From: Echinarachnius parma
Taxonomy: Eukaryota; Echinodermata; Echinoidea; Clypeasteroida; Echinarachniidae
NCBI GenBank assembly: GCA_037951105.1
Contig: JBAMJV010001312.1
Location: 1-64,000, forward strand
Reading direction: 5' to 3'
Length of the DNA: 64,000 nt
Shown one piece after another: positions 14,413-63,628 of the stretch (the first letter of the stretch is position 1; every line of letters begins with the position of its first letter). A program made the translations under genes and the position numbers. Below the pieces are notes generated by a model. It was not told the origin of the DNA and did not search any database. It saw nothing but the letters and a program-made list of their open reading frames with translations.

Positions 14413-14774
14413 AAAAAAAAAAAATCGTGCTTTTCATTTGTATATATGATTTGAATTTCGATATACAGCTAAGTTGTCCAGACCGATCCAAATAATAAAA
14501 TAACGTCAGGGAACGATTGCGGATCAAGTCTTACTCCATATAAACATATGGCGTGTATAGTATTTAATTTTGTATAAACTACTGAAACTGATTTCAAATT
14601 CTTTTCCGATTCGTCCGGAAGGTTTCGTGTTTCAATATTATAACGTGCACGATCTATGCAACGCTGGTTTAACCAAGTAAAACATCATTGGTATTATATA
14701 CAGTATATTTCAATGAACTCCTTTTAACTATAAATTAACTCACAACCAATCGTAACAATTAAAATAATTGGTCA

Positions 14775-20894: not shown

Positions 20895-21564
20895 AGGCCA
20901 AGTTGAGTTTTGGTAATTTCCAAAGTGCCCCCCCCAACATCGATTGTAACGGATTTGGTTGATTTCAATTCCATATGAAAGATCATCGAAAAAAACATGG
21001 GAAATAATAATAATTTCCATTCAAATGCTCTAATTGTTGTGAAATTTGCTTTCAAAATATCATATAAAAGTGGTTGACGCCCGGGTATCACTTTTTAGAA
21101 CCGCTAGTGCGAGGCACTAGCGTTCTATGTTCTCCTAATAAAAAACTGAAACCAAATATTTGTGTGCACGCTAATTGTGCTTAAAACTATACATATGATA
21201 CGGTACTTACCAGCAATTTACTCTCCAATATGTGATCCAACTACCGGGTGGATTAAGATTATGATTTTTCCTTCCATTCCGCAAAAAATCAGTGATATAT
21301 GCGCCTCATGGACCAGTCTCTCCGTGTGTTAGCGCGACTGTGAACGAAAGGCGAACGAATGCGAATGGGGCTTGCGAGTTGCGTCAACGGCACTTGACAC
21401 TTCGAGATGTAACGGCTCTTTTTGAATGATAACAGGGGTTTTACTTTGTCGTTTGTAATTGTGTATACTTTTCGAGCATGGTGAAGTTATAACTATTAGT
21501 TTGTATCGTAATCGTGCAGGTTTTGGTTACTAAAGTTAAGTTTGACCAATACTCAACTATCCCT
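20895..21564. mobile_element. M1-related TTAA element, diverged
   Basis: TTAA at 20,891-20,894 and 21,565-21,568. The ends are AGGCCAAGTTGAGTTTTGGT and ATACTCAACTATCCCT. The right part (from 21,408) carries M1 landmarks inverted: GGCTCTTTTTGAATGATAAC and GTTATAACTATTAGTTTGTA. The left ~450 bp differ from other copies. A hairpin AACCGCTAGTGC/GCACTAGCGTT sits at 21,098-21,122. Confidence 0.55.
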
Positions 21565-21569
21565 TTAAT

Positions 21570-29994: not shown

Positions 29995-30485
29995 GAGACT
30001 AGTAACCCAAACCTGCACCATTACATTACAAACTAATATATATAACTCCACTTTGCTTGAAAGGTATACAAAATTGCAAAGTAAAAAGTCTGTTATCATT
30101 CAAAAAGAGCCGCTAAAACTCAAGAGGGCGCTCTCTAAAAACTCATTGGTTTCAACCATTTTTAATGAAATAAAAAAATTGTGCATGTAGAAAGATCATC
30201 AACAACTATTTTAAAACATCTTGTGTACATTTTTGAAAAGTGTAAGCATTTTTTTTTTCAACGGCTGGTTCAAAATTATTGAATTATTGTGGGGTCCCAC
30301 CATAATTACACATGGTTATATTTATGGATATTTCAGTCGTCTCTGCACCGAATTTGATCAAATAAAGTTTATTCTGTCATTAAATTGTATGCTCTTTCAA
30401 ATTTGACACTCAGTTTTTCATCACCTCACCAAAAAATGCATTTCGTGCAGCGCCATCTATACCAAAACTCAATTTTACCTTATAG
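29995..30485. mobile_element. MITE family M1, copy with eroded ends
   Basis: Same body order as 1,205-1,741: AAACCTGCACCATTACATTA, CAAGAGGGCGCTCT, AATAAAGTTTATTCTGTCAT, CAGCGCCATCTATACCAAAA. The terminal TTAA sites are lost. Confidence 0.75.
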
Positions 30486-37670: not shown

Positions 37671-37918
37671 TACACCACAACATCACACTTAGTGCACAAC
37701 CTGCTCCTAGGAAAGCATAGTATCCTGTTGTATCCTGTTGTAAACTCAGTATCCTGTTGTATTGCAGCACGACCTCGTTGGCAAAACGGACTTGGCAGCT
37801 CTGCTCTGGAAAATGGCCCAGGTTCACCTTTCACATGCGTAGTGACTGATTGGGATTTACTTCTACCTGCAATCATAGAATGAATAAAAATAAATATCAA
37901 GGAATATCAGTACATTAA

Positions 37919-38377
37919 AGAGGTAGTTCAGTTTTGGTAGCACAGCACAATTTTTGTTGTGAGGTAATGAAAAACTGAGTGTCGAATTTTAAAGAACATG
38001 CAATTTTAATGGCAAAATACACTTTATTTGGTCAAAATCGGTTCAGAAATGGATAAAATATCCGATGGTAATAAATTTGGGCCCCACATTTATTCAATGA
38101 TTTTTTTTTATAAAAAAAATGCTTAAACTTGTTCAAACATTTTCAAAAGCGGTTTAAAATAGTTATCTGTTATGCATAATTTTGTTGTATGAAAGTGGTT
38201 GAAACTAATACCATTTTAGAGAGCACCCTCTTGTGTTTTCATGGCTCTTTTTGAATGATAACGGGCTATTTACTTAGTCGTTTGTAATACGTTTCGAGCA
38301 TGGTGGACTTATAACTATTAGTTTGTTATGTTACTGTGCAGGTTTGCGTTTATCCTTACCCAAAACGGTACTACCCC
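37919..38377. mobile_element. MITE family M1, complete inverted copy
   Basis: TTAA at 37,915-37,918 and 38,378-38,381. Ends AGAGGTAGTTCAGTTTTGGT and CCAAAACGGTACTACCCCT. Body in reverse order relative to 1,205-1,741. Nested in the 12.8-kb element. Confidence 0.85.
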
Positions 38378-38681
38378 TTAAAATATATGAATTCATATAA
38401 ATATCGATTAATAATAATTAACTAAACAGAAAATGATTCTACAGGATATTCTATATTGACCACAGTTATACATGTGTGGCATTTATCAGAAATGTGTAAT
38501 TAATCAAACAATTAAAGAAATAAGAAAATAATGATAGCTCATACAAATAATGATGAGAATACAAATGAACATTTTAAAAAGGAGATCAATCCAGTGAAAT
38601 AAAGGTAAAGCAAAACATTAATAAAGAACACCTAGTATGTAAGATAAGAAAAAACAATAATTATGTAAATATACTAACCTC

Positions 38682-39159: not shown

Positions 39160-40008
39160 GAAGTAAAAATAATACAACTTCTTTCTTTTTCAGTTTTACT
39201 TTCGACTTTCGTGAAAAGAGACATTTGATTCGTAAATATTATCCGATTGAGTTGGTTATCCTTGAAGCTCTGTATATAAGTTTGTACAGATAATGTTACT
39301 GATAATGATATTTTAATTAAACAAATAACAAAAGGGGAAATCTAAAAAAAATAAATTTAGCATAAAATAGGGGGAAATAATATTCAACTAGTCCCTCCCC
39401 TCCATTTTTGATCAATTTAAACACCCCCACAATCACAAATGGTATCGTCCGCTAAAAATAGACCGACCGCATAAGTAGGTACATAATGGACTGTTCCATA
39501 TCATTGTAGGAGTGTTTATAATATGCTTGCACCCAGACGTTCACTGAGTTGTAAATGAATTATGTATGCCTCTTATTATAGAAGCTTCGACATTAAACTA
39601 ATATTTCAAAATGTACACGACCCTGAATTCACAATCAACTCACAATCACACAAAATGATTTCACACTGCATAAGTCCAAAGGTCAAAGCAGCCGCAAAAA
39701 ATAGGACAAGGTCACGACAGAGCTAAGTGCCCCTATATGTACTGTACTGTACGTACGTAAGTACAGAGGCAGTGTACAATGCATGGCATCGATATCGTTC
39801 GATACATTTTGTCTAAAAAGCCTAAGAAAATCTCCAGAACTCCCCACACAAAACTACATATTACTAGTATAGAAACTTAAACTTCACATAATGATGTACC
39901 AAAGACATGTGCGATTCATATACTATATAGTCTTACCTTCAGATTGTCCAAATGCAGGTCAAAATCAACCGAATTGTCGTAACTTTTGTTGAACTTCTAG
40001 CTCTGGTA
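39160..40008. other. Non-coding interior
   Basis: No gene recognised between the exon-like pieces and the nested element. Confidence 0.4.
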
Positions 40009-40469
40009 CAGTCTAAACGCGAAGCGTGCGTAATGAGGTGAAACCGGCGAATCTCGCGGAACTCGAGATTAGGCTGTCAGTCGGAAATCGGGCATTGGGA
40101 TGTTACGAGACTTCTCAAGATTTTTGAGACAGGTCAACAAACTTTCATCAGGTACCCTACGTCATGCATCGTGCAAGCAGCAATGGTTGGGTACGTACAA
40201 ACATGATTCTTTCTCTTTATTTTGATGCATAATTTGCCAATTTTGGCTGTCATCTTGGGTTTGAAATATTGAGATGAAAATCGGAAACATTTTGTCTCTT
40301 TCTGGTTAATACTTTTGTCATATTGTCAGATTTTGCGACGTCTTGACCCGTCTAAAACTTACTTTGTAAAATTTTCTCCGAATAATGATAGTTTGAATTG
40401 TTGGTATTACGCACAACCCAAATTCGTTTTGATGCACGATGCTTTTCATGTAATAAATGTCACATTAAA

Positions 40470-40560
40470 AACAACAAAATCTTGAATGTTTACCGGAAGT
40501 AGGCACAATTTTGCTTTAATCGACTCGATCTTTTCGCGCGATGTACGAGAATGGCGCGCC
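40470..40560 (+). promoter_or_regulatory. Promoter-like cluster near the left end of the nested element
   Basis: ACCGGAAGT (a consensus ETS site) at 40,492-40,500 precedes TTTTCGCGCGAT (E2F-like) and a start codon in GAGAATGGCGCGCC at 40,551. Such ETS/E2F pairs near starts are common in CpG-type animal promoters. Function inferred. Confidence 0.35.
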
Positions 40561-40691
40561 AACAAAAGAAACGATTCACAGTGGCATTGTTCTTGTGTAG
40601 TCCCATATGCTTCAATTTATGTTGGGACTGCCTAGTATTACTGTATACTATAATTTGTATGTCTATGATGCTTACTATCCATAGCGATTAG
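40551..40691 (+). CDS. Small ORF, MARQQKKRF..., possible first exon
   Basis: Opens MARQQKKRFTVALFL and runs 46 codons, turning cysteine/isoleucine-rich and less protein-like after about residue 12. A basic N-terminus right after promoter motifs would suit exon 1 of the SGNH gene, but I cannot fix its donor. Unidentified. Confidence 0.25.
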   Translation: MARQQKKRFTVALFLCSPICFNLCWDCLVLLYTIICMSMMLTIHSD

Positions 40692-41729
40692 AATGTTACT
40701 ATTAGGTTTAATCTTATTTTAACTGATTCTTAAAATTACTAGGCCAGGCCCAGGGAAATGTCCCAATTTAGAAGACTCATAATCATCCATGATCCTGATC
40801 ATTCAGTGAATAATCATGATTCAGATTTCAGTGCAATTTTGTGTTTATGAATTATGTAAATTGAATTGTAATCATTGAATATTATTTACTAATACTAGTA
40901 AATACTAGCAAGTACTCGCCCACCATGCCCACATCATATCTGTGTATTAGTTGTAAATGTTACAGAGAGCATCCATTCTTAATTTTGTCATGTTTATATC
41001 GGGGAATAATTTTCCTCAAATTTGATTAGCAATTTCAGCCGATGGATAAATATTTCAAATGAAATTCTGTACATTTCTATGGAAGAAAACTGCTACACAA
41101 AAGATGTTTTGTATAGCAGTCATGCAAAAATGCATAGCAAATTGCGATGCGATACCAGGAAAATTATTCCCTGATTATATTTATATTAAGTTGATTTTCA
41201 TCGAAGTAAAGCATTGGAGAGCCACATCACCACACATAGAGTAATCAATGTATACTAAAATACTGCTGTAACTCTCAATTTCACACCATAGTATGCAGAA
41301 CTGATGTAAATGTGCGACCCTTGGGATCGCTGATCTCCAAAATAGCGGAGGGAGAAGATGGTGCATGGTGGGCAGTCTGGGCAAAGAATGCTAATTTAGC
41401 TAGTTTAAATTTTGAAGCATGTGTCCTGGGTAATGGATCAATGCACCATTAGAACTATGGGGCTTGATCAGTTGCACGTGCACTAGCCCCAGTTAGGTTT
41501 ATTGTATGTGCGTTCAAAAAATAAAAATAAACCACCATCAGGATCAGCCTGTTTACATCTTAAAGCACTTTCCATTTCCCCTCTCTGATTACAGAAATCG
41601 AAAGAGAACCATGGTTCTAACGAAATGGTGCCAACAGAGATGGGACTGATAAGGGGATTTTCATTACTAAAAGTATTTAGTAATTTCTGTGCTTCATGCT
41701 AATTTATTTTCTTTCTTTTTTAATTGCAG
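40692..41729. other. Presumed intron / non-coding
   Basis: No exon recognised. It ends in a strong polypyrimidine tract and acceptor (TTTCTTTTTTAATTGCAG) at 41,712-41,729. Confidence 0.4.
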
Positions 41730-42408
41730 GCTTGCCCCAGCCAATAACATCAAGGTAGCTGTGTTCAGTGACTCCATTTTCGGTGGGCTTCAAGACCAAC
41801 TGCAAGCTACCAACTGCTTTTTTTCCTGGACCGTTGATTTTCTGCCTGGAGCAACTTTAAATAAATTATATGATCATATACGCTATAATTATACAACAGA
41901 CAGTGACACTGGACTAGTTCTTCTCCATATTGGAACAAACAATTTAAATAAGGGTGTATGGCATCAAGATAAACTTTTATATCGCCATCTGTACTTAATT
42001 ACGAGAGAACGTTTTCCAGCTGCACATATAACATTCAGTTTTATTTTACCCCGCTGGGACAGTGAGGATCTTCACACTAAATCTTTATATTACAATTTAA
42101 AACTGCACCAACTCTCCACTTCCTTCGGGAGATGTAATATATTTGATGGAACTGGTCCATTTTTGCAACACTCCTTTCATTACCAGAGAGACGGGTTACA
42201 TTTGACAAGTGCTGGCAAGAGTGTTATTGCGGACAGTATATCTTCTTTTGTGAACAATTTATTTTTTCCTGCTACACGCGTTATTGTTCCACATCCACGA
42301 TGGCAAATACCACCCATTTGCCCTCCAAAAAAAAAGGCATCAGGAGTCGGTTCAGTCAGGACAGTGGAAGGAGACAGATTTGGACTTGGTAGTTTATTGC
42401 AGGCGTGA
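41730..42408 (+). CDS. SGNH/GDSL-type hydrolase domain exon of the nested element
   Basis: After the acceptor the frame reads LAPANNIKVAVFSDSIFGG (block I, nucleophile Ser in SDS), FLPGATLNKL (block II Gly), VLLHIGTNNLNKG (block III GxN) and RDGLHLTSAGKSVIADSI (block V, DxxH). All four SGNH catalytic or oxyanion positions are present in about 190 residues, a normal size for the fold. SGNH enzymes are esterases or acetylhydrolases. In transposons they occur as accessory ORFs of unknown substrate. The frame stops at 42,406 just after an A9 run (42,328-42,336). A neighbouring frame stays open past this point with a basic sequence, so a slip in the A-run is likely. Exon start is phase 2; the upstream exon is unknown. 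Confidence 0.75.
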
Positions 42409-42785
42409 AAAGTATGGAAATCGTCGCCGTCAACAAACACCACAACCTCTCCCGCCGAAGCCAAGAAAGAAAAAAACACCATGGCAGTCTGTTCTTGCTC
42501 CTTCAGCCCCAAAGTTATGTGCCTGATGTGCCAAGTTTTAAGATTATACCTTATGTGGCCATCAAGTCAAGATGTGTCGCATCATCTCTACAGCAACTTC
42601 AGCCAATTCAGCAACCTGCGCAACCATCGCCATATGTGCGGAGGAGGAAGGCTGCCAGGAGAAGGAGGCAGAGGAGGAAAAAGACCCTACGGAAGAGGCG
42701 GCGAAAGAAGGTACATATATTTCTGTTTGCCCAAAAAATATGTCTTGCCTCAAAATATGTTTTTGTTAAAATAACTCCCATGTAA
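42409..42785 (+). CDS. Basic C-terminal extension of the SGNH ORF, frame-shifted
   Basis: Downstream of the SGNH domain two frames in turn carry low-complexity basic sequence: RRRQQTPQPLPPKPRKKK (to 42,526) and YVRRRKAARRRRQRRKKTL then RKRRRKK (to about 42,708). The latter is followed by a donor-like AAG/GTACAT. It resembles a nuclear-localisation or nucleic-acid-binding tail. At least two shifts separate it from the SGNH frame. Confidence 0.4.
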
Positions 42786-42799
42786 AAAAAAGTAATGCA

Positions 42800-42990
42800 A
42801 GAACTGCAGTACCACAGTACTGTAATGCAGTACTCGGAGTACATACTTGAAGTACCTATGTTATTACTGCATTAGTACCGCGGTACTTGTACCACGGTAC
42901 TTGTACCACAGTACTTGTACTGCGAAAGTGTCCAATTTACCGGAGTAAATGCACTATGAGTACCGCAGTACTGCAATAACATGTTTAACT
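42800..42990. repeat. GTAC-motif array
   Basis: GCAGTACCACAGTACTG, GTACCGCGGTACTTGTACC and ACCACGGTACTTGTAC-type palindromes recur about every 15-20 bp. Non-coding and probably intronic to the SGNH unit. Confidence 0.7.
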
Positions 42991-43149
42991 AATGTTATAT
43001 ATTACAGCCCCGTAGCCAGGGGGGTGCGTAGGGTGTGTGCGCACTGTTTTATTACATTTGATAAACTTATAATCGAGTCAGTACATGTACTGAAGTTGCA
43101 GTTATACTGTTTATATGGTAAATTTTTCTGAATAGAAATTCCTAAACAA

Positions 43150-43225
43150 ATAGAGTCAAACCTGTGTATAGTGACTACCTAGGGGAAGCATGGAAAGTGG
43201 CCACTGTAGATAGGTGACCTGTAAC
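43150..43225. repeat. Fragment of a GTGGCCACTGTAGA-type MITE
   Basis: GAAAGTGGCCACTGTAGATA followed by GGTGACC resembles, in inverse orientation, CTGTCTACAGTGGCCACTTT at 48,464-48,483. The sequence type is widespread in animal repeats. Ends not resolved. Confidence 0.4.
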
Positions 43226-43419
43226 CTTCTAAATATGGTATTTAAATGCTATGAAGTTATCCAGAACTATTTATCTGTGATTATGTAGCTTGTAAAATAC
43301 AACTGTTCTTAATTAAAACACATGAATTCTGATTTGATTTTAAACTTAATTTTTTTAAAATTCAGGTTTGATTTTAATCTTATATTTTTGTTTTCCGTAT
43401 TTTTCTCTCTGCTCCCAGG

Positions 43420-43979
43420 TGAAACAGAACTTCCTACATATCCTGCCAGTGACAAACTATCGAGCTATCCTTACACCCGGGTGGAACTCTCCAGTGTTTA
43501 CAGACATTACACAAAGACCATGTTGTGATCCCGTGCACAACCAGCTAGCTCCAGTCCATGGTACACGTCCTCCACCAGCTCCCGACCCTGCAGACCATGG
43601 TACTCGTCCTTCACCAGCTCCCGACCCTGCAGACCATGGTACACGTCCTCCACCAGCTCCCGACCCTGTAGACCATGGTACACGTCCTCCACCAGCTCCC
43701 GACCTTGCAGACCATGGTACACGTCCTCCACCAGCTCCCGACCCTGCAGACCATGGTACACGTCCTCCACCAGCTCCCGACACTGTAGACCATGGTACAC
43801 GTCCCCCACCAGCTCCAGACCCTGCCATTGTTTTGGAATCGGTTTCACCACAAGCCATTCATTCAGAATCATGCTCTTGCTTACATATACTAATAAGGTC
43901 TTTTAGTGTTAAAGCCCAAGCTTTATCATTTGCTGTTATAGGATCTTCTACTTTATCTGCACGGTTCATCAAGTCTTGA
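43420..43979 (+). CDS. Proline-repeat exon of the nested element
   Basis: After a strong acceptor (TTTCTCTCTGCTCCCAG, ending 43,419) the frame reads VKQNFLHILPVTNYRAILTP and WNSPVFTDITQRPCCDP. Seven copies of the 13-residue unit HGTRPPPAPDPAD follow, then a less repetitive tail to a stop at 43,979. The tail after ~43,859 is antisense to the zinc-finger exon, so the true end is probably near the repeat. Function unknown. Confidence 0.4.
43557..43829 (+). repeat. 39-bp minisatellite, seven units
   Basis: Units start at 43,557, 43,596, 43,635, 43,674, 43,713, 43,752 and 43,791. Consensus begins CATGGTACACGTCCTCCACC. Few substitutions between units, so it is recent or homogenised. 39 is a multiple of 3, so unit gain or loss preserves frame. 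Confidence 0.95.
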
Positions 43980-44301
43980 ACACACAAATCTAGATCACTA
44001 AAACTTGTTTTCTTAACAATGTGAACAGAATAACGATAACATCTTGAGCACAAAAAACGCATCTCCATCAACAGCAAACTCTGCCTTGATGTCTTTCAAC
44101 TTGCTTACTCCTTCATCTGAGAGGATTTTTGATGAATATTTCCTTTCTTTAACTGTAACTTTAAGGCTACATATGCAACATGTAATACAAAGTTCAGTTG
44201 TTTTAAAATTTGAAAGCTCTGCCCTGTGTTTCCTGCACAGAGATATGATATTGGGTACTGACAAACAATTAAGATGGAATGCATTATTAAAGTCGTCTAA
44301 A
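43859..44301 (-). CDS. Zinc-ribbon exon of transposase-like family (block 2)
   Basis: After acceptor TTGCAG the minus strand reads LDDFNNAFHLNCLSVPN, then LCRKHRAELSNFKTTELCIT and CCICSLKVTVKERKYSSKI. After a shift by one base in a run of six T (plus 44,053-44,058) it reads FLCSRCYRYSVHIVKK, then ITANDKAWALTLKDLI and a stop. The order C..H..C..C, then CxxC, matches an uncharacterised, highly multicopy protein family of marine invertebrates. In that family, cysteine-rich N-terminal modules precede an LWNxI-LT domain and, at the far C-terminus, a PIN/XPG-like region. I infer it to be the transposase N-terminal part. Confidence 0.55.
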
Positions 44302-44392
44302 CTGCAACAGGATTCCACTTCTGATGTAAGAGCGCACATCATGTATTCCGAGAGGAAACAATTAATCCTGTGCTTCTTCCTGCTTTTTTCAG

Positions 44393-45081
44393 GCGTATAT
44401 AAAGAATTTTTAATGACAGCTGCATATGAATTATATACTAAAGTCCTAAGAAATGTGTGTCATAGTAATGTATCACTATATGATAGATCAAAAAGGTCAA
44501 AACCATGGCTTAGAATCAGAATCATGGATATTATGGGAAGTAAACTCTCAATTAGTAAATCTGGGTCTAACAGAGGAGATTTGTTTTATGTCTCAGACTT
44601 ATCAAAAGAAGACATTATCGAAGCATGGCATAAATCAAAAGCTGAAATATTTTCTCTAAACAGTAAATGTAATGATGAATGTTCTTCCTCTGATGAGACA
44701 TTGTTGTCACCTGCACATTCTTTAAATGAGAGTGAATCTCTTTCAAGTCTGTGTGACACAGCATGTGCAGTTAATACTATGCTTCGTTCACAGGGGAAAA
44801 ACATGTGTGAAACATATTCTAAAGACCCCATGTCTCTACTGCCATTTGATATTAATTCAGTTGACACTCTATTTAACCCAGTACTTTGGAATTTCGTTTG
44901 TTCGTTAACAGGAAGTAGGGAAGAGATAGCTGAAGCACGAATGGCAGTGCCTTCGTTTGGTGAGGATTTTCTTTTTCTTGCTGATACTTCATCTCAAGGG
45001 TACTTAAAACGTAACAAAAGAATATCCCTTATGTATATGTTGCATTTTATTATCAGTGATAACAACACATATCCATTCCAT
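44393..45081 (+). CDS. Transposase-like middle block in opposite orientation
   Basis: After acceptor TTTTTTCAG the plus strand reads GVYKEFLMTAAYELYTKVL, RSKPWLRIRIMDIMGSKL, then after an acidic linker TLFNPVLWNFVCSLTGSREE, KRNKRISLMYMLHFIISDN and NTYPFHC. This matches the family's middle region (YxMF..., LWNxIxLLTxSxxE, MLHFxxxxxCxxPxH). Its natural place is directly after block 2, on the same strand. Here it is inverted and lies between blocks 1 and 2. The sequence stops resembling the family at about 45,081, where unrelated GC-rich DNA begins. The 360-codon ORF starting at 44,044 is a chimera: its first ~115 codons are antisense to block 2. Confidence 0.55.
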
Positions 45082-45243
45082 TGTAGTCGGATCGGGTCGA
45101 GTCGGCTCTGTCTGCGCCGGGCTTAACGCAGCCTCATACGTCTTGGGTCTATGGTAGGATCCACAAAAGATAAACTCGAAACAAACTTGCTCAGGGTTCT
45201 CATGGAAGTCCCCCACCCTCCCCGGCCAGGATCTGTGGCCTCT

Positions 45244-45476
45244 CTATACATTTTTAAATTTTTTCCTGAACTTAACATGACATGCATTACATATACAACT
45301 ATTCCCCTCCAGTGAAACACATTTACTTTTAAATAATTCCATTAGGCTCTCTGACTTTAAAGTACAAAGATGAACATATCTAACATAATTTGTATTGCCA
45401 CTGCACACTTTACATGGGCCACACTTTGTTTTGTTGCATGGTGCAACACCTCCTTTATTTGGCTTATGTTTTACCC
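45244..45476 (-). CDS. Cysteine-rich exon of transposase-like family (block 1)
   Basis: After acceptor TTTCACAG the minus strand reads VKHKPNKGGVAPCNKTKCGP, CKVCSGNTNYVRYVHLCTL, then SLMELFKSKCVSLEGNSCIC and NACHVKFRKKFKNV and a stop at 45,244. Eight cysteines in CxxC-like spacing suggest one or two zinc-binding modules. It fits the N-terminal module of the same family as 43,859-44,301, which lies downstream on this strand. Too short and split to be obvious as an ORF. Confidence 0.55.
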
Positions 45477-45577
45477 CTGTGAAACATTGATATTTAAATT
45501 TATTTCGAACATTATTTCAGTCTGTACTACTAAAACAAAGATAGGTGCAAGACCGAGATGTTGTGGAAAGAATGATT

Positions 45578-45925
45578 CTGAGAGGGATTTGTTTTAAATG
45601 AGTGATGTACACTGATGTACAATGTGGAGTTGTACTTATCTTAGTCTTGCCATGCCAAATATGAAAATGTACACGTATGAACATACATGGTTGACTCGAA
45701 GCTGAAACTGTGACAAGATAATAGTCATTGATACATGGAAGGTGCTTATGAATTTTGCCAAAGATATCTGTTTTTTTTTCAGTTATTTTACTGAGAGGGA
45801 TTTGTCAATTTACAACGTGGAGTTGTACTTGACATGCCAAATATGAAAATGTACAAGTGTAAACATGCACTGTGACAAGATATAGTCATTGATAGGTGGA
45901 AGGTGCTTATAAATGTATGAGATAC
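45578..45925. repeat. Direct duplication, ~212-bp first unit
   Basis: GAGAGGGATTTGT, GTGGAGTTGTACTT, GCCAAATATGAAAATGTACA and GATAGTCATTGATA-like segments occur in order at 45,579-45,790 and again at 45,792-45,925, with deletions in the second unit. Non-coding. Confidence 0.75.
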
Positions 45926-47728
45926 GTTTATCTCTAAATAGTTTTTGTTTGTATTGCATACTTAAATGCTGTGGCTGAAACAGTGTGCTAAGTTAAAGTA
46001 AGCACATTCACTTCCTTGTAAATTATGGATGATTTTATCAGCATGTGTGAAGGGATGTGCAAGCACTATATTGAGATATCATGGTAATGAGGAGTATTGT
46101 ACGATAGGCCATTTACACTTAAGCATTACATTTTATGTGCATAATTATGCATTATGTCATGGTTTTATAAATGAAGATAGTAGTTTTAGTATGCAAGTTT
46201 TCTATGTACTAAGAAATACATGTAGTTGTATTTTGTACTACTTACTGGTTCACCTTTATTTGCATGCTTATAGAAATTACTGTATGTGCATACAAAATTC
46301 ATCTTGAATGTTGAAAATGCAGCTGAACACATGTACCTTACCTCAGTGTGATTCATTTCACACTATCCTTGTGTGTGATATCTTGCCTATGAACCTGTTT
46401 ATAATGAGTTTACTCTGTAAATAAAAAGTTTTTTATTCATAAAATTTAATTTTTGGTTTTAAGTGTTTTCGATAACATTATTTACCAACCAGTTAGTATG
46501 TTTGTGTTTGAGTGAAACATTGATGGGTGCTTCCCGTGTGCTTTCTTTCAATGATCATATCGGCGGGGTTGTTCATGGTTGTGTGTTTGTGTGGGCGTGT
46601 ATACGTGCGTGTGTGTCTGTGTGTTTTTGGACAGTTAGCACACTTCTCTTCAACATTTCCTTAACTCTCACTTCTTATTTTTGTTTTCGCATATTTTCTG
46701 GGGGAGAGTGGGGATGGGGATATACTATAATTAATTTGATAATTTGACCCAAACATTGTAAACAATAACAATAAACAAATAGCAAGAAACAAATATACTT
46801 TCCCAAAATCAGGAGGCCTAAGCATTTACTTTGACTTACCTCTAATATTCATCAAATTAGGAAATACACATATTCCCCCATACCCCTATGCCCTAAGAAT
46901 GGGAACAACGTAAGTTATCCAAGATTTGTCTTTAAATCCTCGACTTCCGTTTTGACACTTGTGATATTGATCAGTGATAGTTCTCAAACATCAACTTACA
47001 TAAAAATGATCATGTGGGCCTACGCGTTCTTAACTTGAGCCAATCACTCGCTGTATGTCCATTGCAATCTGTCAGATTTTATTGGTGAAAGGAGAGGAAG
47101 GAGGGAATATGGGAAATATGACATAAAATGTATTATTATCTAAGTTCTACAAATTTTAGACAGAAATGAACAAGGATAAATCCATCGCCTCGATCGCGAA
47201 TCGAACGTACGATCGAAGCGCTAGCAGACAACCGCCGATCACGTGATCACGTATTGACCAATGCGGTTGCTTCGGTGCAAGCGCGAATTGAAGCTAATTT
47301 TTTAACACAATTCGTAGATTCTAAAAATGAAGTGGGGTCATTATATCCGACGTCTTGACTCGTCTAAGGATTAACATGTCTAAAAGTGCACATTTTTCAG
47401 AAGAATATAACCATATGAATGAATATCTAAGCAGAAAGGAATGATGCAAGACTTTTTAATGGTACTTTTTGATGATCAAAACCGTAGAAAATTGTACGAT
47501 ATTAAGGGAATGTTCAGCTCATATTTTCACATTTTTTGCTGTCTTATTGTCGATAACTAATACGATATGAGGTAAGATTTGACTTTTCTCATTAATTCAT
47601 GACCAAGATTATCGAAATCTGTTCAGAAATGGCGAAGTTATGCTAATTTTTATTTGACACGTCCTATCGCAATATTTGTAAAAATGCATCTCGGGTATGA
47701 ATATTAGTTCCGCACACGGAGCCTCGCC
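45926..47728. other. Non-coding right part of the nested element
   Basis: No further exon recognised. A CGTTCGATTCG motif on the minus strand near 47,190-47,210 recalls a pol III B box, but no tRNA structure accompanies it. GACGTCTTGACTCGTCTAA at 47,349 recurs near the left end (40,337). Confidence 0.4.
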
Positions 47729-47884
47729 CGCACGCTTCGCGTTTAGACTGGGTATGAGCATATTTTGTTGGAGTACGAGCTATGTACACGTACACATTAT
47801 GTACGTAGGATCTTTGATTATTTATAGCTCTTGAGGTTACAGTTGAAACCCGTCACAATTTAGTTTATGATAAATTCTCCACTT

Positions 47885-48215: not shown

Positions 48216-49300
48216 TAGTTAGCTCTATGAGCGTAAGGAAACAGAGGGCAGCATAGTAAATTGTAGTAACAATCAACATGGAATCTATGCTGTGTACACT
48301 TGTATGTGGGCAGTACCACTGTCCGAAGAATTTGAGGCATTGCATTATTTTTTTAATTCTAAAGCGCCCTCTAGGAAACTTAGCAAAATCATAATTCTTC
48401 TGAAAAATTTCTTAATTTCAGCCAACATGTAAGCCTACTGGTGAAAAGGTGATTTTATGGAACCTGTCTACAGTGGCCACTTTTCTTGTCATGCATTATA
48501 GTCGCATGATTGACTGTACGACTGTACGGCAATGAAAATTGTAATGTGTTTGTCAGTTGATCCGCCCGTGATGACACCCACCCCCCCCCCCTCCCCCCCC
48601 CCCCCCCACCCTAAACACTGCCTGCCCCATTTCAACAGTCGATCCAGGGGATGTCTGTGGTAGAGATCGGTGGTATAGATCGACCCCCGCAGGGGTAGTT
48701 CAGTTTTGGTATAGAGGGCGCTGCACGAAATAAATTAATTGTGAGATAATGAAAAACTGAGGGTAAAATTTGAAAGAGCATACCATTTTAATGGCAGAAT
48801 AAACTTTATTTCATCGAAATCGGTTCAGAAACGGCTGAAATATCAATAAATATATTCGGAATAAATATGGGGCCCAGACACCCCCTCCTTGAAAAATGTT
48901 GACCAACACCCACCCCCCCCCCCCCCCCTCAAAAAATGTTGACCAACACCCCTCCCCTCGAAAATACTTGACGGAGGCCCCCATATAGTGGCGAGTTCAG
49001 TGGGCTGCACCGATGAGTGGCTGGCAAAACGTTTCCGATACGATATAATTATCTCCATATTGACCGATCGCAATTGTATCGACATTCACTTGCACGTTGC
49101 GCATGCGGACTATTCCACTATTTTAGCATACCTGCAGATGAACACTTAGTCATCGTTTCCAATTATATTTGTCCATATTCACACTTAACATTCATTGAAT
49201 GTGTATTTATTTTTAATTCTTTAATATTTTTGTGCATTTAAATGATTTTTCCAAGCAAATCTGAGTTAATACATATTTACATATAATATTTAAATACCTA
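48216..49300. other. Intergenic: MITE M1 fragment and C-tracts
   Basis: M1 left part at 48,694-48,870 (AGGGGTAGTTCAGTTTTGGT, TAGAGGGCGCTGCACGAAAT) ends abruptly. C-tracts lie at about 48,578-48,607 and 48,911-48,928, the latter followed by a repeat of AAATGTTGACCAACACCC. No gene seen before the WAC promoter region. Confidence 0.6.
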
Positions 49301-55600: not shown

Positions 55601-58600
55601 GGGGGTCAAGAGGTGCATCATACAAATGATATCTGCATAATAAAGACACGCAAAGCTGATAGCAGCAGAGTCTCCTACAATTTGTTAGCAGTGTGGAGAC
55701 ATTGTTGCAGAGTAAGTTCAGGTATTTCAAGCAAATATCCTTTGTTCACTTGAACATTTTATCTTATACAAATCTTGTAAAATATATGTATTACAATTTT
55801 TTTTCTTTCAGAGAGAAGCTGCAAAGAGCAGTTGGAAAAGAGAGACTCGGCACGAATGATTCTCCTGTTCCTACTACTCCTACTAAAGGTGAGTTGAAAG
55901 CTTGCATTTATGTAGTATCCTTTGTTGACAAAGATTCAGTGTTTGTGTGAGAGACAATATAGAAATCAACCATATCCAGAATATGTATTGATCAACTGTT
56001 GAGATTGGGTTGGGGAGGAGAAAGCAGTATGAAAAGAAATTATATGATGACCTTCCTGACAACATTCTACATGTAAACTCAATCCATAGCATCATTCTCC
56101 CTTGTACATACCGTGTATCTTAGTGAAATGTTTTTTTTAATACTTGTTTTATTATTTCTTTTCTTGCAGCTACGTCTAACGACAAGCATTCCACTAATAG
56201 CAAGCCTGATGCAAGTCAGCATCTATCACAGGCATCTAATAAATCTGAACGACCAGCCGATGGCCAGTCGCAAGATAAACCCTCCTCCAATGCACACCAA
56301 ACCTTGAGTAGACCACAGCTCACCAGTCCGCACTCAAAGACAGCAACACAATCACAATCTTCATCCAGCTCCTCTTCCTCATCTAGCGTGGTTAACCAAT
56401 CACAGCAGCTTCGTCAGGGCACCAGCAGCCAATCACAGACATCGTCACATCACAGTAATGCAGTAGGACAATGTCACTCACAATCAAAACCGAGCGGTGG
56501 TCCCCAGCCGCAGTCGGTATCCAAGGCGCAACCCATAGAAAAGACTCAAAGTAATCGGCCTGATTACGCAAAGAGCGAATCTTCACAATCGCCAACCATG
56601 AAGTCGCCATTCCCCTATGCTGGGACTTTGTCTATAGCCACGGACATGTATGGAAGACTGAAGAACCTTGTCAGCGATTCACCTGCTCCAAAGGGAAGTA
56701 GGTCAGATCGAGGTACGTAATACCCAAACACTGCACATGATAATGTAATTAGTAATCTATTGCTGATGAATGTAATTTTCTCTTTCTCTAGGATTGTCCA
56801 TATGCAATGTCGCTCAATGTCTGTATGACAATTGAAATTTTATTGAAGACAATTTGGTTTTGTTACAACAAAAAGCCCAAAGAAATTTGTGCACTGTCCT
56901 ATTTACATATTTGTTACAGCCACAGAGTTGTTGAAACGGGTGCTATCTTGTAGAGAGAAGAAGATATTGTGGCTTTCAACTGCCTGTTAACTTGTTACGA
57001 CCAACCGATTTGGTTTAACCCTAACCAGGCCGGGTTATTTTGGCTATAGCCGGGGGGGGGGGGGGGGGTGGATTCCACCCCCCCCCCCCCCCCCCCCCCC
57101 CCGAGATCTCGGCCGCTGAACGCGCGGCCACCGCAAAATTTGGCACACAGATAGTTTGCGACATAATCTACAAGATTGCATTGTTATTTTTTTGAAAAAA
57201 ATAAATTTCTACTTAATTATGCAAATTTATGCACAAATATTCTTTTTGTCTATAAATCACTAAATATGGCTCAGAATATGCTAATTTTGTGCATGAATAT
57301 TCTTTATGACCTAATTAAAAGGTTTTCAACATTAAAAATTGCGACAGCCAAAAAATTCCTTATGTATTTCTTTGTTTTTGGAATTTCTTATGTATTTTTT
57401 TTTGTTTTTTTTACTTTTGTTTTTTATTGTTTTTTCGATGGAATAAATTGTTAACCATTATTTAACAATTTTTAGCTCAAAATTAAATGATTGCAGTGAT
57501 TAGAATGAAAAATAATGAAGGTTTTGTCTATTCTAGGAAAAACTCAATTTCCATAGGATTTGTACACAAATCACAAAATTGAGCGATTTTCGTGCCGACG
57601 CTCACTTACAAAAGGTCACGTGACTTTAGAACGGTATACCCGGTCGTCGCAAATTTGGTCTCAAAAGTTGCGCAAGACCTTCAACAAAAAAAGTCGTGAA
57701 GTCGCGCGGCAAAGCCTGCGCGCGTTGCGGAATTATCGCGCGAAAAGTCGAGGGGGGGGTGGATTCCCCCCAAGCGCACTCACATCACTCCCATTTTGAG
57801 ATCATTACACTGGTTACCTGTAAAGCAACGTATTATTTTTAAGATCTTATTATTGACTTTTCATTGTGTCCATGGCTCCTCTCCCCAATATTTAATTTCA
57901 TTAATTCAGAGGTACACCCCTGCAAGATCATTACGTTCATCCACCTCCAGTTCTCTAGTTCCTCTCAAAGTCTCAAAAACCTGGGGGAAAGATCGTTTGT
58001 TTATTCATCTCCGAATTTATGGAACAGGCTTCCTGAACATATAAAGTTATGCCTCACTTCTGAATCTTTTAAGTCTCACCTTAAAACCTTTCTGTTTGAT
58101 TCTTAATTTTCTTTAAAAAGCGCCTTGAGCACTCTTCAGAGTGGATTTGGCGCTCTAAAAGTCTAATTTATTATTATTATTATTATTCCACTGGTTAGGG
58201 TTAAGGTCACTGGAGTTGAAAAAGTTTTACTACTTGTCGAAATGGGCAATAAGGGAAGGAAAAAAAGTAAATTCTGACTCTGGCCTTTCTTGAGCAGTTA
58301 TCCATCTATCCGTAAGATATATTCTCCTGGCACCTTGCCACCAGTCACACCAACATCCCAGAATTAATCCCGGTCTTTGAACCTTTTCCATCTAAATCAC
58401 CATTAGGGCTTGGAGAGATTTGCATATTTTGTTTTCTCCTCGTGATCTATTGATTTGATTTCATAAGTTACATAGTTCATTCAACTAGATTGTCTCTCTA
58501 CTCTGTTTAGATTCACCGAGGATACAAGGCACACCATCACCAGCCGGCACCGTATCACCCGTCACACCAAGACTCCAGAACCAATCCAAGTCCTTACCAT

Positions 58601-60227
58601 CAAAGTCACCTTCAACAGACAAACATTCTTCCCTGCATAATGATAGGCATGACGAACTCAATGATAGTAAGTCCATCACAGTTATTCTTATTTTTTGCCG
58701 TATCAATGTGCAACATTATTACTTGCCCACTACCCAATGGACAGTAGAAATGACTGTGCCCCTGCAGAATTTCTTTCCTTTTTAATGACAGTCACTGTAT
58801 TCCTTGTGTTTGATAATAAGCTGTTTAGCCAAGAGAAAGATAACTTAATGCAAACCTTGCTGATGAATTTAATTAATAAGGGCTTGAGGTCCTACATTAT
58901 ATGTATGGTATCTATATTTAGACATTGTAGTTCGGGGGTTGTAATATTTCAAGTCCTAAATTTTATGCCAGGTGGCAAATGTTGCTTCTAGAGATCCCTG
59001 ATACATGACATGTACTTGTTAAAGAAAAATACATTCAATTGAAGTCATGAATAAACTAAATAAGGGGGGGGGGGGGCTTTAGAAAACATGTTTTTATACC
59101 TGAACTGTCTGGTTGAAATGTTTGAAACATTAAAACATGTTGAGATTGTCTTGGATATCTTATCAGATATGTTCAAGATATCATTTGTTAGGAATCACTT
59201 ATGATTATTTTAGTCAAATCTTCCAATACATGTACAACTAGTGTTAATTGTTAACTCGATTATGCTGTGCTTTCTATTCAAATCTATGACAGCTTATATC
59301 AAGTAATAATTGCTTGCTTGACCTTACAGGGTTATCCAGTCAATCTCCACTGTCTGCATCTTCAATATCGCCATCTCCGTCCCATCCCTCTCCCCGGTTA
59401 AGTCAGTCGACGCTCGGGGGCTCCAAGCCCCATCACGCTGGCTCAGGGAGTACCACGCCTCACACGCCATCGGCTGACGACAGACAGAGGAGAAACCATA
59501 GGAGCGGAGGAACGGGGGGTTCTAATCACACCCCAACGTCTATATCAAGTAGTGGTGCAAGGAACTCTTCTTCTTCACAGAGCAGGGATAGAGAACGTGA
59601 TTCAAGATATTGGGAGCGCGACCGAGATAGAGATCGCGACCGCGATAAGGATCGCGTTCGGGAACGAGATCGCGATAGAGACAGAGAACGTGATAGGGAC
59701 CGTGAACGTGACAAAGACAGGGATAATGACCGTGTAAGGACGAGAGACTACGATCGTGATCGAGAAAAAGACCGCGATCGTGATAGGGATAGGGAACGTT
59801 ATCGCGAAAGAGATCGTGACCGGGAACGAGATCGGGAACGGGAACGAGAAAGTGACAGGGAAAGGGAAAGGTCAAGGTCTCAAGAAAGGAATACAGATAG
59901 GGAACGGGATAGGGAACGAGAGAAAGATCGTGATAGAGATCCTGATCGCGAACGGGAGCGGGATCGTGATCGAGACAATGGCAGAGAGAAGGAGAGAGAC
60001 AATCACCGGGATACTGAAAGAAGGCCCAACTCTGAATCTTCACGCGACTCGGAGGATAAGGAGAAGGAGAAGGAGAGGGATAGACACATATCCGGGAATG
60101 GAAAGCAGGTTCCTGCTGAGAATTGTGAAGTGGTTGGGAAAAATCAGAAAGAGACTGATGAAAAAGTTCTAGAAGCAAAGCCGTCAGCGGAAAGTGATGG
60201 GAAGGTGGAGGCTCCTTCAACTTCAAG
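49639..60227 (+). CDS. WAC: WAC orthologue, WW-domain adaptor, nine exons, 3' end outside window
   Basis: In vertebrates WAC binds RNA polymerase II C-terminal domain and the RNF20/40 ubiquitin ligase to promote H2B ubiquitination, and acts in the nucleus. Exons (49,639-49,679; 49,891-49,924; 52,281-52,464; 54,340-54,464; 54,871-54,986; 55,812-55,888; 56,170-56,712; 58,511-58,666; 59,330-60,227) have GT-AG borders and matching phases and give 724 codons plus 2 bases. Order: conserved N-terminus; WW domain at about residues 136-164; Ser/Gln/Pro-rich linker; mixed-charge RD/RE tract at about 511-656; acidic/lysine tail. Human WAC is 647 residues in all, so this protein is longer even without its C-terminal coiled coil, which lies past 64,000. 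Identification rests on the N-terminus and WW domain and is firm. Confidence 0.93.
49891..49924 (+). CDS. WAC: WAC exon 2, 34-nt microexon
   Basis: Bounded by TTTCTTTTCTTGCAG and TTTCAG/GTTTGT, it adds G then [11 protein letters not shown] in phase. Human WAC has CHDRRGDSQPYQ at the same place. It is invisible to ORF finding; phase on both sides (2 in, 0 out) confirms it. Confidence 0.88.
50090..52280. other. WAC intron 2
   Basis: Contains a repeat at 51,075-51,390 with CTGGAAAGTCATGGAATTTG and AAAGTCATGGAATTT copies, a type common in animal genomes, and G/T-rich runs. No exon recognised. Confidence 0.55.
52281..52464 (+). CDS. WAC: WAC exon 3
   Basis: Reads [40 protein letters not shown] and [17 protein letters not shown]. 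Phase 0 in, 1 out, acceptor TTTTTGTAG, donor ACAG/GTAAAC. Low-complexity, basic; corresponds to the variable segment between the N-terminus and WW domain in other WAC proteins. Confidence 0.85.
53763..54000. mobile_element. MITE in WAC intron 3
   Basis: CCCATTCATACTTGCGTCTA with GCACTGG at the left mirrors CCATTGCTAGACGTAAGTAT with GAATGGGG at the right. The left end also has its own hairpin, GCGTCTAGCA/TGCTAGACGC, at 53,784-53,812. Non-coding. Confidence 0.7.
54340..54464 (+). CDS. WAC: WAC exon 4
   Basis: Reads [19 protein letters not shown] then [19 protein letters not shown] and HIKA. Acceptor GTTGCAG, donor GCT/GTAAGT. The histidine/asparagine/serine-rich composition parallels the NSHNHSALHSSNSH part of human WAC just before the WW domain. 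Confidence 0.88.
54871..54986 (+). CDS. WAC: WAC exon 5, WW domain
   Basis: Reads [20 protein letters not shown] then [18 protein letters not shown]. First Trp at about residue 136, the YYY block at 147-149, second Trp 158, Pro 161. Human WAC reads [20 protein letters not shown] then VSQWEKPKEWLER. Ligand-binding aromatic positions are kept. The residue after the second Trp is Gly where human has Glu. WW domains bind proline-rich partners; in WAC it contacts the polymerase/chromatin machinery. Confidence 0.95.
55215..55643. mobile_element. MITE in WAC intron 5, TGACGCAC-motif rich, ~55-bp TIRs
   Basis: ATAATGCAGGTGTCATTTGT then GCACCTCTTGACCCCCGG at the left pairs with CCGGGGGTCAAGAGGTGC then ACAAATGATATCTGCATAAT at the right. 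Between them TGACGCAC or GTGCGTCA and close variants recur about ten times in both orientations. No coding. Confidence 0.85.
55812..55888 (+). CDS. WAC: WAC exon 6
   Basis: Reads (R)[18 protein letters not shown] then VPTTPTK. Directly follows the WW domain, replacing human EREQRQKEANKM. Acceptor TTCTTTCAG, donor AAAG/GTGAGT. Phase 2 in, 1 out. Confidence 0.88.
56170..56712 (+). CDS. WAC: WAC exon 7, Ser/Gln-rich linker
   Basis: 181 codons. Begins (A)[18 protein letters not shown], has a ten-serine run at about 56,361-56,390 and ends [20 protein letters not shown] then [14 protein letters not shown]. Intrinsically disordered composition as in other WAC proteins. Acceptor CTTGCAG, donor CGAG/GTACGT. 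Confidence 0.88.
57005..57776 (+). repeat. Interspersed repeat M4, copy A (forward)
   Basis: Begins CCCTAACCAGGCC, passes a G-run/C-run palindrome, then CAAAATTTGGCACACAGATAG, ATTATGCAAATTTATGCA, AATTGAGCGATTTTCGTGCC and GGTCACGTGACTTTAGA. Ends AAAAGTCGAGGGGGGGGTGG with ATTCCCCCC, echoing the GGGGTGGATTCCACCCC near its start. An inverted copy lies at 62,337-63,076. Non-coding, in the intron before exon 8. Confidence 0.8.
57777..58188 (+). mobile_element. LINE 3' end fragment with (ATT)n tail
   Basis: Reads [20 protein letters not shown] then [20 protein letters not shown]. After a frame change near 57,960 it reads [19 protein letters not shown] and [10 protein letters not shown], stopping near 58,106. 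This is the post-RT tail of a CR1/L2-type non-LTR element. The 3' UTR (GCGCCTTGAGCACTC, ATTTGGCGCTCTAAAAG) ends in ATT repeats at 58,168-58,187. The RT core is missing (5' truncation). Joins copy A of M4 directly. Confidence 0.8.
58321..58402 (+). pseudogene. Decayed duplicate of WAC exon 8
   Basis: CACCAGTCACACCAACATCC and TCCATCTAAATCACC parallel CACCCGTCACACCAAGACTC and ACCATCAAAGTCACC of exon 8 (58,511-58,666), about 190 bp upstream of it in the same orientation. The translated trace [14 protein letters not shown] ends in a stop and has no clear splice sites, so it is a dead tandem exon copy. Confidence 0.6.
58511..58666 (+). CDS. WAC: WAC exon 8
   Basis: Reads (D)[39 protein letters not shown] and [12 protein letters not shown]. 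Ser/Pro-rich linker. Acceptor CTGTTTAG, donor GATA/GTAAGT. Phase 1 in, 1 out, matching exons 7 and 9. Confidence 0.87.
58667..59329. other. WAC intron 8
   Basis: No exon or element recognised; a G-run at about 59,065-59,074. Confidence 0.5.
59330..60227 (+). CDS. WAC: WAC exon 9, Arg-Asp/Glu mixed-charge tract
   Basis: 299 codons. A Ser/Pro/His/Thr-rich first third ([20 protein letters not shown]...) is followed from about residue 511 by near-continuous RD/RE dipeptides ([20 protein letters not shown] and so on) to about 656. A lysine/acidic tail ends APSTSR at donor AAG/GTGAGT. Such mixed-charge Arg tracts are known to send proteins to nuclear speckles and favour condensation. Codons vary (CGA, CGT, CGC, AGG, AGA), so the tract is old protein sequence and not a fresh microsatellite. 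The long minus-strand ORF over it (60,226-59,540) is its antisense shadow. Confidence 0.9.
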
Positions 60228-60964
60228 GTGAGTGTACATTGTCATGTTGATTATATACATGTGTAATTTTTACCAGTTTTTGGTGTACTGTACATGTAGG
60301 TATCTTCAGATTGGGCATTTTATTCATTTCACTTTATCCCCCTTGTATTGCCATGAATTTTGTTAGGTACATGACCTATTATTGAAGGCAAAAGGTTAAA
60401 AGATTAAGGTGTCTGAATAGCATTTAAGCATGGTAGAGTGATAACCAAAATCTAAGGTGGATCAGGTCATAGCCGACCTCTCGTGACCCCTCTGATCTCT
60501 CACCAGGTTTTCCTGTCTTGCAGACTCCTTCAGCATTCTTAAATCCATCTCCCGGTTCCTTTACACCATCAAGCATCTCTTTCTGGGTCTTCTATTTTTC
60601 TGCCTTGATCCATTCCATTCATCATATTTTTCTCCAATTAAAATGAAAATGTACAAGCCATAGCAACTATAATAGTTTTAGTGTTGCCCTTTGAAATACA
60701 GTGTAACTGCATGTAATGTGTATTTCATGAGGTCCTACAATAATAATGCATTGCAACATTATGACATTTGTACAATGACTTTTAGAAAAGCACTCACTTT
60801 TGTATAATTTCAATTATTGAAATCCGGAAAGCTTACAAGTAAATCATGTTTATTATGTACAGGGATTTGATGAAGTAAATGGATGTTGATAAGTTGATTA
60901 CAAGCCAGTATCGTGAAGTTAATTGTTTTAAATTTGAATTCATTATAAACCTTAACACAACAAA

Positions 60965-62336: not shown

Positions 62337-63076
62337 ACTAAGAACGATCGAAGTATCTTAATTTGGAAAGTTCGATGTTTCGCGTGATAATTTTGCAACG
62401 TGCGCAGGTATTGCCGCACGACTTCATGAGTTTTTTCATTGAAGTCTTGCGCAACTTTTGAGACCAGGGACCTTTTGACGACCGGGTAAACCGATCTAAA
62501 GTCACGTGACCTTTTAAGTGAATGTCGACCCGAAAATCGCTCAATTTTTTGATTTGTGTACAAATCCTATGGAAATGGATTTTTTTCCTAAAATACACAA
62601 AAATCTTCATTATTTTTCATTCTAATCACTGTAATTATTTTATTTTGGGCTAAAAATGGATAATGGTCAATAATTTATTGACATTTTTTTTTTTCTTAAA
62701 AAAAACAGAAATAAATAAGAAATTTCAAATACAAAGAAATACATCAGGAAAATTTTGGCTGTCGCAATTTGTAATGTTGAAAACCAGTTGAATTAAGTCA
62801 TAAAGAATATACAAATGTACATGCACAAAATAAGCATATTTTGAGCAATATTTAGTGATTTGCAGACAAAAAGGGGATTTCTGCATAAATTTGCATAATT
62901 AATTGATATGAATTAATAATGTATTATTTTCAAAAAAATTATGCAAACTTGTAAATTATGTTGCAAGCTATCTGTGTGCCAAATTTTGTGGCGGCTGCGT
63001 GTTCGTCAGCCGAGATCTCAGGGGGGTAGAATCCATCCCCCCCCCCCCCCCCCTCCCCCCAGTATGGCCTGATTAG
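62337..63076 (-). repeat. Interspersed repeat M4, copy B (inverted)
   Basis: Reverse-complement relative of 57,005-57,776. CAAAATTTGGCACACAGATA, TAATTATGCAAATTTATGCA, GGAAATGG/CCATAGGATTTGTACAC and GGTCACGTGACTTTAGATCG occur in the same order on the minus strand. C-run at 63,038-63,052. It lies 2.1 kb after exon 9. Confidence 0.8.
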
Positions 63077-63082
63077 AGTTAA

Positions 63083-63628
63083 AGTCATACCTGTAAAGTG
63101 TCAGATATTGCACAAAATGACATTTGAGACTTCAATCCTATATCAATATCATTGTAAAATACAATTGAAAGATTTGTGAAAGTTTGAAAGAAAACAAACA
63201 CTGTTTACCTAGTGAAAAAAACGAATATTGAGTTCATATTTTATCACCGAATACTGATGGTCTGCAATACATTTGTCGCAGTAATGAATGATCCGTTTGA
63301 GATATTCGCACCCATGTATGTTTACACACGTAGTACAGAATTCATGGAATTTGCACTCGCTCGGCTCAAAGTTCAATCTCCGGAATGTTCTCACGCATGC
63401 TGCATGCGGACATTCTCAGCTAGGACAATTGTACTTTTTATCAAAAGCGTTAATCAACGTGATTGAAATAAAAGATTTAAATGATAATTATCTTCATTCT
63501 AAAGGGACATTTGAAAAAATCAAACCCTATTTTATTCTTCTTTTACCATAAGCTAAACAACACGGTAGAAGAGAAACGAGGAAGCTCCAAGTAATTTTCG
63601 TGGATTTGGACACTTTACAGGTATGACT
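63083..63628. mobile_element. TTAA MITE adjoining copy B
   Basis: TTAA at 63,079-63,082 and 63,629-63,632 flank inverted ends AGTCATACCTGTAAAGTGTC and GACACTTTACAGGTATGACT. 546 bp, no convincing ORF. The left site falls in the edge sequence of M4 copy B, so this insertion is younger. Confidence 0.85.

Follow-up and report, generated by a model that had tools for sequence, protein, structure and literature searches.

A probable non-autonomous member of an AcademX-like DNA transposon family that pairs an SGNH hydrolase with its transposase in Echinarachnius parma

Esterases of the SGNH type have been described as accessory proteins in several kinds of mobile element. One of them is the esterase of the first open reading frame (ORF1) of long interspersed nuclear elements (LINEs) of the CR1/L2/RTEX groups, exemplified by zebrafish ZfL2-1 (structure 4c1b); according to excerpts of PMC3905857, the ZfL2-1 enzyme hydrolyses p-nitrophenyl acetate and binds acidic phospholipids. 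Excerpts of PMC9210276 and PMC5408684 likewise describe an SGNH/GDSL accessory frame in Ngaro/DIRS elements (amphibian Ngaro), in the long-terminal-repeat element Vesta of bdelloids and in the Penelope-like Athena elements. In the Helitrons of fish an SGNH hydrolase, texim, is likewise linked to a DNA transposon (excerpts of PMC4021074). Among cut-and-paste elements, AcademX generates target-site duplications of 3 or 4 bp and encodes a nuclease, and AcademH generates duplications of 9-10 bp (excerpts of PMC10045372). Here we analyse an element at positions 40009-47750 of a 64,000-nucleotide stretch of the Echinarachnius parma genome (contig JBAMJV010001312.1, positions 1 to 64,000; hereafter the window). 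Judging from sequence comparison, we think it likely, with a probability of roughly four in five, that this element is a non-autonomous, scrambled copy of an AcademX-like cut-and-paste family whose fuller members pair a retrotransposon-type SGNH esterase with a transposase.

The locus resembles each of the described systems in part. Its SGNH protein shares with the LINE ORF1 esterase the catalytic residues and a transposon-specific H/S pair (PMC3905857, in excerpts), but here the enzyme lies N-terminal of a basic tail and repeats and upstream of a DNA-transposon transposase, and, unlike in LINEs, no reverse transcriptase was found in six frames of the element. Ngaro/DIRS, Vesta and Athena are retroelements, unlike the present DNA transposon. 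Helitrons are rolling-circle elements lacking terminal inverted repeats (TIRs), and most fish Helitrons lack texim, at least as far as excerpts of PMC4021074 describe them, whereas here an SGNH gene accompanies most of the transposase genes listed. With AcademX the element shares 4-bp duplications, and its regions of DUF6589 and CXC type, whose link to Academ we assume, may be a further common trait; relative to AcademX it adds an upstream SGNH gene, a proline-rich repeat exon and a −1 frame junction. Listings of the open-licence literature gave no description of an SGNH gene in Academ or another TIR element, nor of an upstream proline-rich repeat exon and −1 junction in Academ.

The evidence for the pairing comes from the rest of the genome (1.2 Gb, 14,790 contigs searched). 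We searched it with the transposase protein of a fuller relative on contig C4763 and scored the best 26 of 602 candidates. Among the matches listed, this transposase occurs on at least 24 contigs, and on 21 of the 24 an SGNH gene lies upstream on the same strand; we therefore conclude from these arrangements that the pairing of an SGNH hydrolase with a zinc-finger transposase, which an earlier note on this DNA had proposed, is no coincidence. Of the remaining three, two begin too late to show an SGNH gene, C4484 within the transposase and C14098 926 bp before it. When the question is asked in the reverse direction, a transposase accompanies the SGNH gene on 15 of 30 contigs with diverged SGNH copies (again among the matches listed). 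The full-length diverged copies encode transposases 50-57% identical to that of C4763 and SGNH proteins 36-42% identical to that of the window. Gene order and strand are the same in all three diverged loci that were fetched whole, and in all three an unrelated tandem repeat replaces the 39-bp repeat found in the window. The description of the SGNH gene as an esterase cargo is too weak for a gene kept across strongly diverged lineages. The protein is probably an integral accessory rather than random cargo and, by analogy with the LINE ORF1 esterases, perhaps a membrane- or lipid-linked helper. A TIR lineage in which an SGNH gene stands nearly always beside an intact transposase frame would offer a direct test of whether such esterases help transposition, and it would extend to a DNA transposon a module shared with retrotransposons.

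The fuller members of the family measure ~11.5-12.6 kb. The C4763 element has 22-bp ends identical to those of the window element, an SGNH frame of 371 residues and an uninterrupted transposase frame of 1,803 codons. C2209 resembles it and has the same ends, with its transposase split across frames. The C4582 element (12,640 bp) matches at its right end and has 4-5 changes at its left; on one strand it carries, in order, the SGNH gene, the repeat exon, the zinc-finger region and the transposase, interrupted by two insertions. In C2 the catalytic part has been lost through another deletion. The SGNH frames of C2, C2209 and C4763 span 369-371 residues and continue into a basic tail. From these relatives, a fuller member most likely encodes the SGNH protein with its basic tail and proline-rich repeat exon, followed on the same strand by one long transposase frame with zinc fingers, a DUF6589 catalytic region, a nuclease-like part and CXC, in that order.

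That the window element is a mobile unit, as the earlier note held, is supported by its ends, its flanks and its copies. The 22-bp TIRs at 40009-40030 (plus strand) and 47729-47750 (minus strand, the inverted complement of the left end) are 100% complementary, and the window has no third match to them even when 3 mismatches are allowed (expectation 0 in 100 shuffles). They are flanked by the duplicated target GGTA (40005-40008 and 47751-47754), so both the identical ends and the exact duplications read earlier are real. As a chance control we counted perfect inverted pairs of at least 14 bases with equal 4-mer flanks within 20 kb; such pairs arose in 2 of 20 Markov simulations, one in each, and other repeats in the window likewise yield pairs of this kind, many with palindromic flanks. 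The case for the ends is carried by their 22-bp length and by the sister copies. Exact 4-bp duplications flank 18 of the 20 elements for which both ends were seen (14 of 16 fetched copies plus the window, C4582, C4763 and C2209; C9264 and C10464 stand outside this count). The 4-bp target varies between copies, being TTTA in C4763, and GGTA is therefore not a fixed target but only that of the window copy. A 20-bp subterminal direct repeat, CGACGTCTTGACYCGTCTAA, lies ~330-400 bp inward from both ends (40336-40355 and 47348-47367, both plus strand). The element had also been called nested, a view that found no support in a comparison of its flanks within the window, which returned interspersed repeats and no enclosing element.

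DNA of the window element matches 20 contigs, the window included, and the other 19 were fetched. Seventeen of them are collinear with the window's scrambled interior at 98-99% identity, which with the window makes 18 copies of the window type; C2 and C4582 differ. One window-type copy has a short deletion (C13562) and one an insertion (C2080), the latter (L025/L026) consisting of a few kb of additional DNA in the transposase remnant near window position 45036. The SGNH exon is free of stops in 16 of the 18 copies, with one stop each in C9686 and C2080, and in all 18 it terminates in the same short frame. No transposase core was detected in the window-type copies. Taken together, these comparisons identify the window copy as a non-autonomous, internally scrambled and recently amplified derivative. 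With 18 uniform scrambled copies next to a relative that looks intact, the family would make a clean case of the amplification of such a derivative.

The assignment of the family rests on its duplications and on the domains of its fuller members. Pfam places DUF6589 above the cut-off in C4582 (8.5e-11), C4763 (6.5e-12) and C9905 (4.3e-11), and TCR/CXC in C4582 (24.1 bits against a cut-off of 23.5). The duplications, exactly 4 bp long in 18 of the 20 elements, agree with the 3-4 bp trait of AcademX. An Academ-type, AcademX-like element is thus the most likely classification, and the earlier note's guess of Academ fits both the duplications and these domains, with the domain ties assumed. The region between DUF6589 and CXC has motifs picked out by eye (VRVLFDQ..RSRRD, YSIDRDIGMIGL, CSGCDYVSFF) and may be XPG-like, although no tool confirmed this. 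Kolobok duplications are TTAA; we rejected this superfamily, as TTAA occurs in no copy and the targets vary. AcademH, with its 9-10 bp duplications and helicase, was likewise rejected on the 4-bp duplications and the lack of any helicase family in the scanned transposase frames.

The SGNH exon of the window (41730-42408, plus strand) was read by the earlier note as holding all four catalytic blocks, and indeed it retains the catalytic S, G, N and D/H. Its blocks are FSDS, PGAT, GTNN and DGLH, block I being SDS rather than GDS. In the three lineages represented by the window, C6334 and C9905, D14-S15, G40, N70 and D154/H157 are invariant. Pfam Lipase_GDSL_2 detects the window protein at E 4.4e-4 and the individual proteins scanned at 4e-4 to 3e-6, each below the curated cut-off. 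A profile built from the three lineages finds as its best solved match the zebrafish LINE ORF1 esterase 4c1b (E 1.8e-14), the next SGNH match being platelet-activating factor acetylhydrolase (E 5.3e-4). Two residues of the LINE enzyme, H191 and S228, are conserved only among transposon-encoded esterases according to excerpts of PMC3905857, and their equivalents (H66 and S103 of our alignment) keep H and S in each of the three lineages compared. Between the window and C9905, the nonsynonymous rate (dN, 0.69) is lower than the synonymous rate (dS, 2.36), the latter being near saturation. A single-sequence model of the fold reached a predicted local distance difference test score (pLDDT) of 32.2. 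On the strength of the profile match, and with the H/S pair in agreement, the protein is probably an esterase of the retrotransposon ORF1 type.

Several observations weigh against our overall interpretation. The transposase of C8358 has no detected SGNH gene, and its own N-terminus is also missing. The other 15 of the 30 diverged-SGNH contigs lack a transposase among the matches listed; they may be fragments or other elements. The duplications do not match in 2 of the 16 fetched copies (C7872 and C10624). The few changes within the window type do not show selection, dS is saturated in the other comparisons between lineages, and changes within families are too few. TCR/CXC falls below its cut-off in C4763 (20.7 bits) and C9905 (21.3 bits). 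The nuclease-like region has no Pfam or PDB match and no Foldseek match at E <= 0.001, and its model from three sequences has a pLDDT of 37.8. Finally, that DUF6589 is the Academ core and CXC/Cys8 an Academ trait is our own assumption, and a search of open-licence papers gave no mention of DUF6589. Because the ties of DUF6589, XPG and CXC are assumed and no tool recognised the nuclease, Academ-type is the most likely filing and not a proven one.

If the family is as we describe it, the transposase of the fuller copies would cut at the common 22-bp ends and paste with a 4-bp stagger. Since these ends are shared, the window-type copies would be moved in trans. How the transposase itself is produced is suggested by the sequence between the two genes. 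In C4763, C6334 and C9905 (3 of 3 lineages, sites chosen by eye), the SGNH exon appears to splice in phase 0 to the repeat exon, with donor sites ranking among the best 1-3%, and acceptor sites among the best 1.5%, of those in the window. The spliced SGNH-repeat frame runs for 191-285 codons and then ends in GGGG followed by TAA or TGA. At this GGGG-TRA sequence the transposase frame opens one base back, preceded by 4-14 open codons that contain no ATG. The junction, with its −1 frame, is present in 15 of 15 fetched loci belonging to 5 sequence groups; since one group contributes six loci that hardly differ, the effective count is five groups and not 15 loci. A +1 offset was rejected, as the frames show −1. 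Inspected by hand, 5 of 5 groups have G as the third base of the glycine codon in the transposase frame, and 5 of 5 have A or G as that of the valine codon, a regularity beyond what the encoded amino acids alone require. If the tRNA reading GGG slipped by −1 on GGGG ahead of a slowly decoded stop codon, the two frames would be joined in the manner of gag-pol. We therefore entertain, tentatively and at a little under even odds, a gag-pol-like DNA transposon in which the SGNH-tail-repeat protein is the main product, a fused SGNH-transposase arises by −1 slippage in a way conserved between lineages that share only about half of their transposase residues, and the esterase is an integral module shared with retrotransposons. 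Weighing against a frameshift, no convincing RNA structure was found downstream of the junction (z −0.04, −1.14 and −2.26), and, judged by eye, most groups lack a standard slippery heptamer, C9905 being the one that fits. Frameshifting is an established way of making transposase in bacterial insertion sequences, and we know of no such case among eukaryotic DNA transposons. If true, it would be a retrovirus-like means of matching the amount of transposase to that of an accessory protein.

The same element might instead make its transposase by splicing, through an alternative acceptor near the junction, and we regard this as a serious candidate that still falls short of an even chance. The putative intron between exons 2 and 3 indicates that the gene is spliced, no stable RNA structure downstream favours frameshifting, and 3 of the 5 groups have, within the short −1 window, an AG that could serve as an acceptor. 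This AG is absent from C6334/C13458 and from C14098, however, whereas GGGG-TRA is kept in every fetched locus.

A different concern is that the SGNH gene might be a passenger without a role that a single copy picked up by accident, whether from a LINE or from a host gene. Precedent exists in that texim of fish Helitrons is an SGNH gene captured by an animal transposon (excerpts of PMC4021074). The window-type SGNH frame is moreover broken past residue ~203, and half of the diverged-SGNH contigs lack a listed transposase. Against this stand the retained catalytic residues, the same-strand upstream SGNH gene on the great majority of listed transposase contigs even where its protein has diverged to 36-42% identity with the window's, and the three diverged loci that all keep the same order together with a repeat exon. 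We thus consider chance capture unlikely and, for the present lineage, largely refuted by these comparisons.

Still less probable is an origin of the SGNH part as a LINE fragment that inserted into the element. Its best match of known structure is a LINE ORF1 esterase, but no reverse transcriptase or endonuclease family was found in six frames of the element, and the fragment was rejected on the missing reverse transcriptase. Nor did we see reverse transcriptase remnants or LINE tails beside the SGNH exon in C4763-type elements, and the gene has putative introns and a conserved order in diverged elements. A LINE insertion of the ordinary 5'-truncated kind loses ORF1 while keeping ORF2, which also counts against this origin.

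The scrambled interior of the window copy had been read as two convergent genes, a transposase running toward an esterase. The minus-strand cysteine-rich frames on which that view was based are present, at 45250-45475 and ~43884-44378. In six fuller relatives (C4763, C2209, C4582, C6334, C13458 and C9905), however, the SGNH and transposase genes lie on one strand, which contradicts two convergent working genes and makes the convergence an apparent artefact of rearrangement. Relative to those copies, both cysteine-rich pieces of the window type are inverted, the LWNF-LT piece keeps its strand and the downstream part is gone. We conclude from this alignment that the interior is a rearrangement that one simple inversion would be insufficient to produce; it would have inverted the two cysteine-rich pieces and removed the catalytic part, after which a single master was amplified. 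A functional convergent design is highly improbable: 18 copies do retain the interior at 98-99% identity, but amplification of one master explains this uniformity, the minus-strand pieces cover only the N-terminal zinc-finger region with one of them frameshifted, no DDE family was found in six frames of the window element, and the genes are co-oriented in the fuller relatives.

Within the window copy, a possible short first exon of the SGNH gene, ATGGTTGG (MVG; 40183-40190, plus strand), is weakly suggested, by reading phase only, with a donor that scores among the best 4% of GT sites. The main SGNH exon is open up to 42408 but leaves the frame of its relatives past about residue 203, and a remnant of the basic tail follows at 42327-42710 (plus strand), with two frame changes relative to C2. 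Next come a putative phase-0 intron (42711-43418) and the repeat exon (43419-43875), both on the plus strand, the latter containing 39-bp (13-residue) proline-rich repeats at 43552-43825. The number of these repeats differs among element copies, and the reading frame through them is open in C4582, C4763 and C2209. Part of the N-terminal zinc-finger region of the transposase, inverted, makes up the second cysteine-rich piece at 43867-44413 (minus strand), and a fragment of the pre-catalytic region with LWNF-LT occupies 44407-45081. The latter lies on the plus strand and not among the minus-strand exons. A splice acceptor at 44393 into this segment was rejected, the stretch being the antisense of the inverted zinc-finger piece (by comparison with C4582 and C4763). 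A segment (45082-45249) to which nothing in the aligned portion of C4582 corresponds separates it from the first cysteine-rich piece, an inverted fragment of the transposase N-terminus at 45250-45581 (minus strand). Frameshifts break the SGNH tail and the second cysteine-rich piece relative to C2, C4763 and C2209. The right-end region (45579-47750), in which no protein family was found, is common to C2 and C4582; it includes an old imperfect tandem duplication (45615-45753 and 45808-45914, ~70% identical) also present in both. A Pfam search of six frames of the window element returned SGNH as its sole match, with no transposase or reverse transcriptase family. Rfam and tRNA scans gave nothing informative, and the SGNH protein, the LWNF segment and the TIR gave no useful match when searched against viral and bacterial/archaeal contigs.

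Elsewhere in the window, plus-strand open frames at 56127-56720 and 59290-60231 encode Ser/Gln-rich and Arg/Asp/Glu-rich repeats and are probably exons of a host gene; neither has a Pfam match. A repeat copy at 1205-1741, bounded by inverted ends that match perfectly over 14 bp or more and carry TTAA flanks, is perhaps a TTAA-targeting miniature inverted-repeat transposable element and belongs to an interspersed family with relatives at 30001-30472, 37912-38382, 21411-21568 and 48691-48876. Another such pair of ends, again perfect over 14 bp or more and flanked by TTAA, occurs at 63083-63628, its members ~550 bp apart. Inverted repeats of 680 bp (14774-15453 and 19127-19785, 92% identical), with tandem arrays of ~163-173 bp inside them, possibly delimit a foldback or long-TIR element of ~5 kb. 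A second inverted repeat of ~700 bp (57052-57751 and 62372-63052, 78% identical) spans ~6 kb, and a perfect GAA triplet array of 73 copies lies at 9912-10130.

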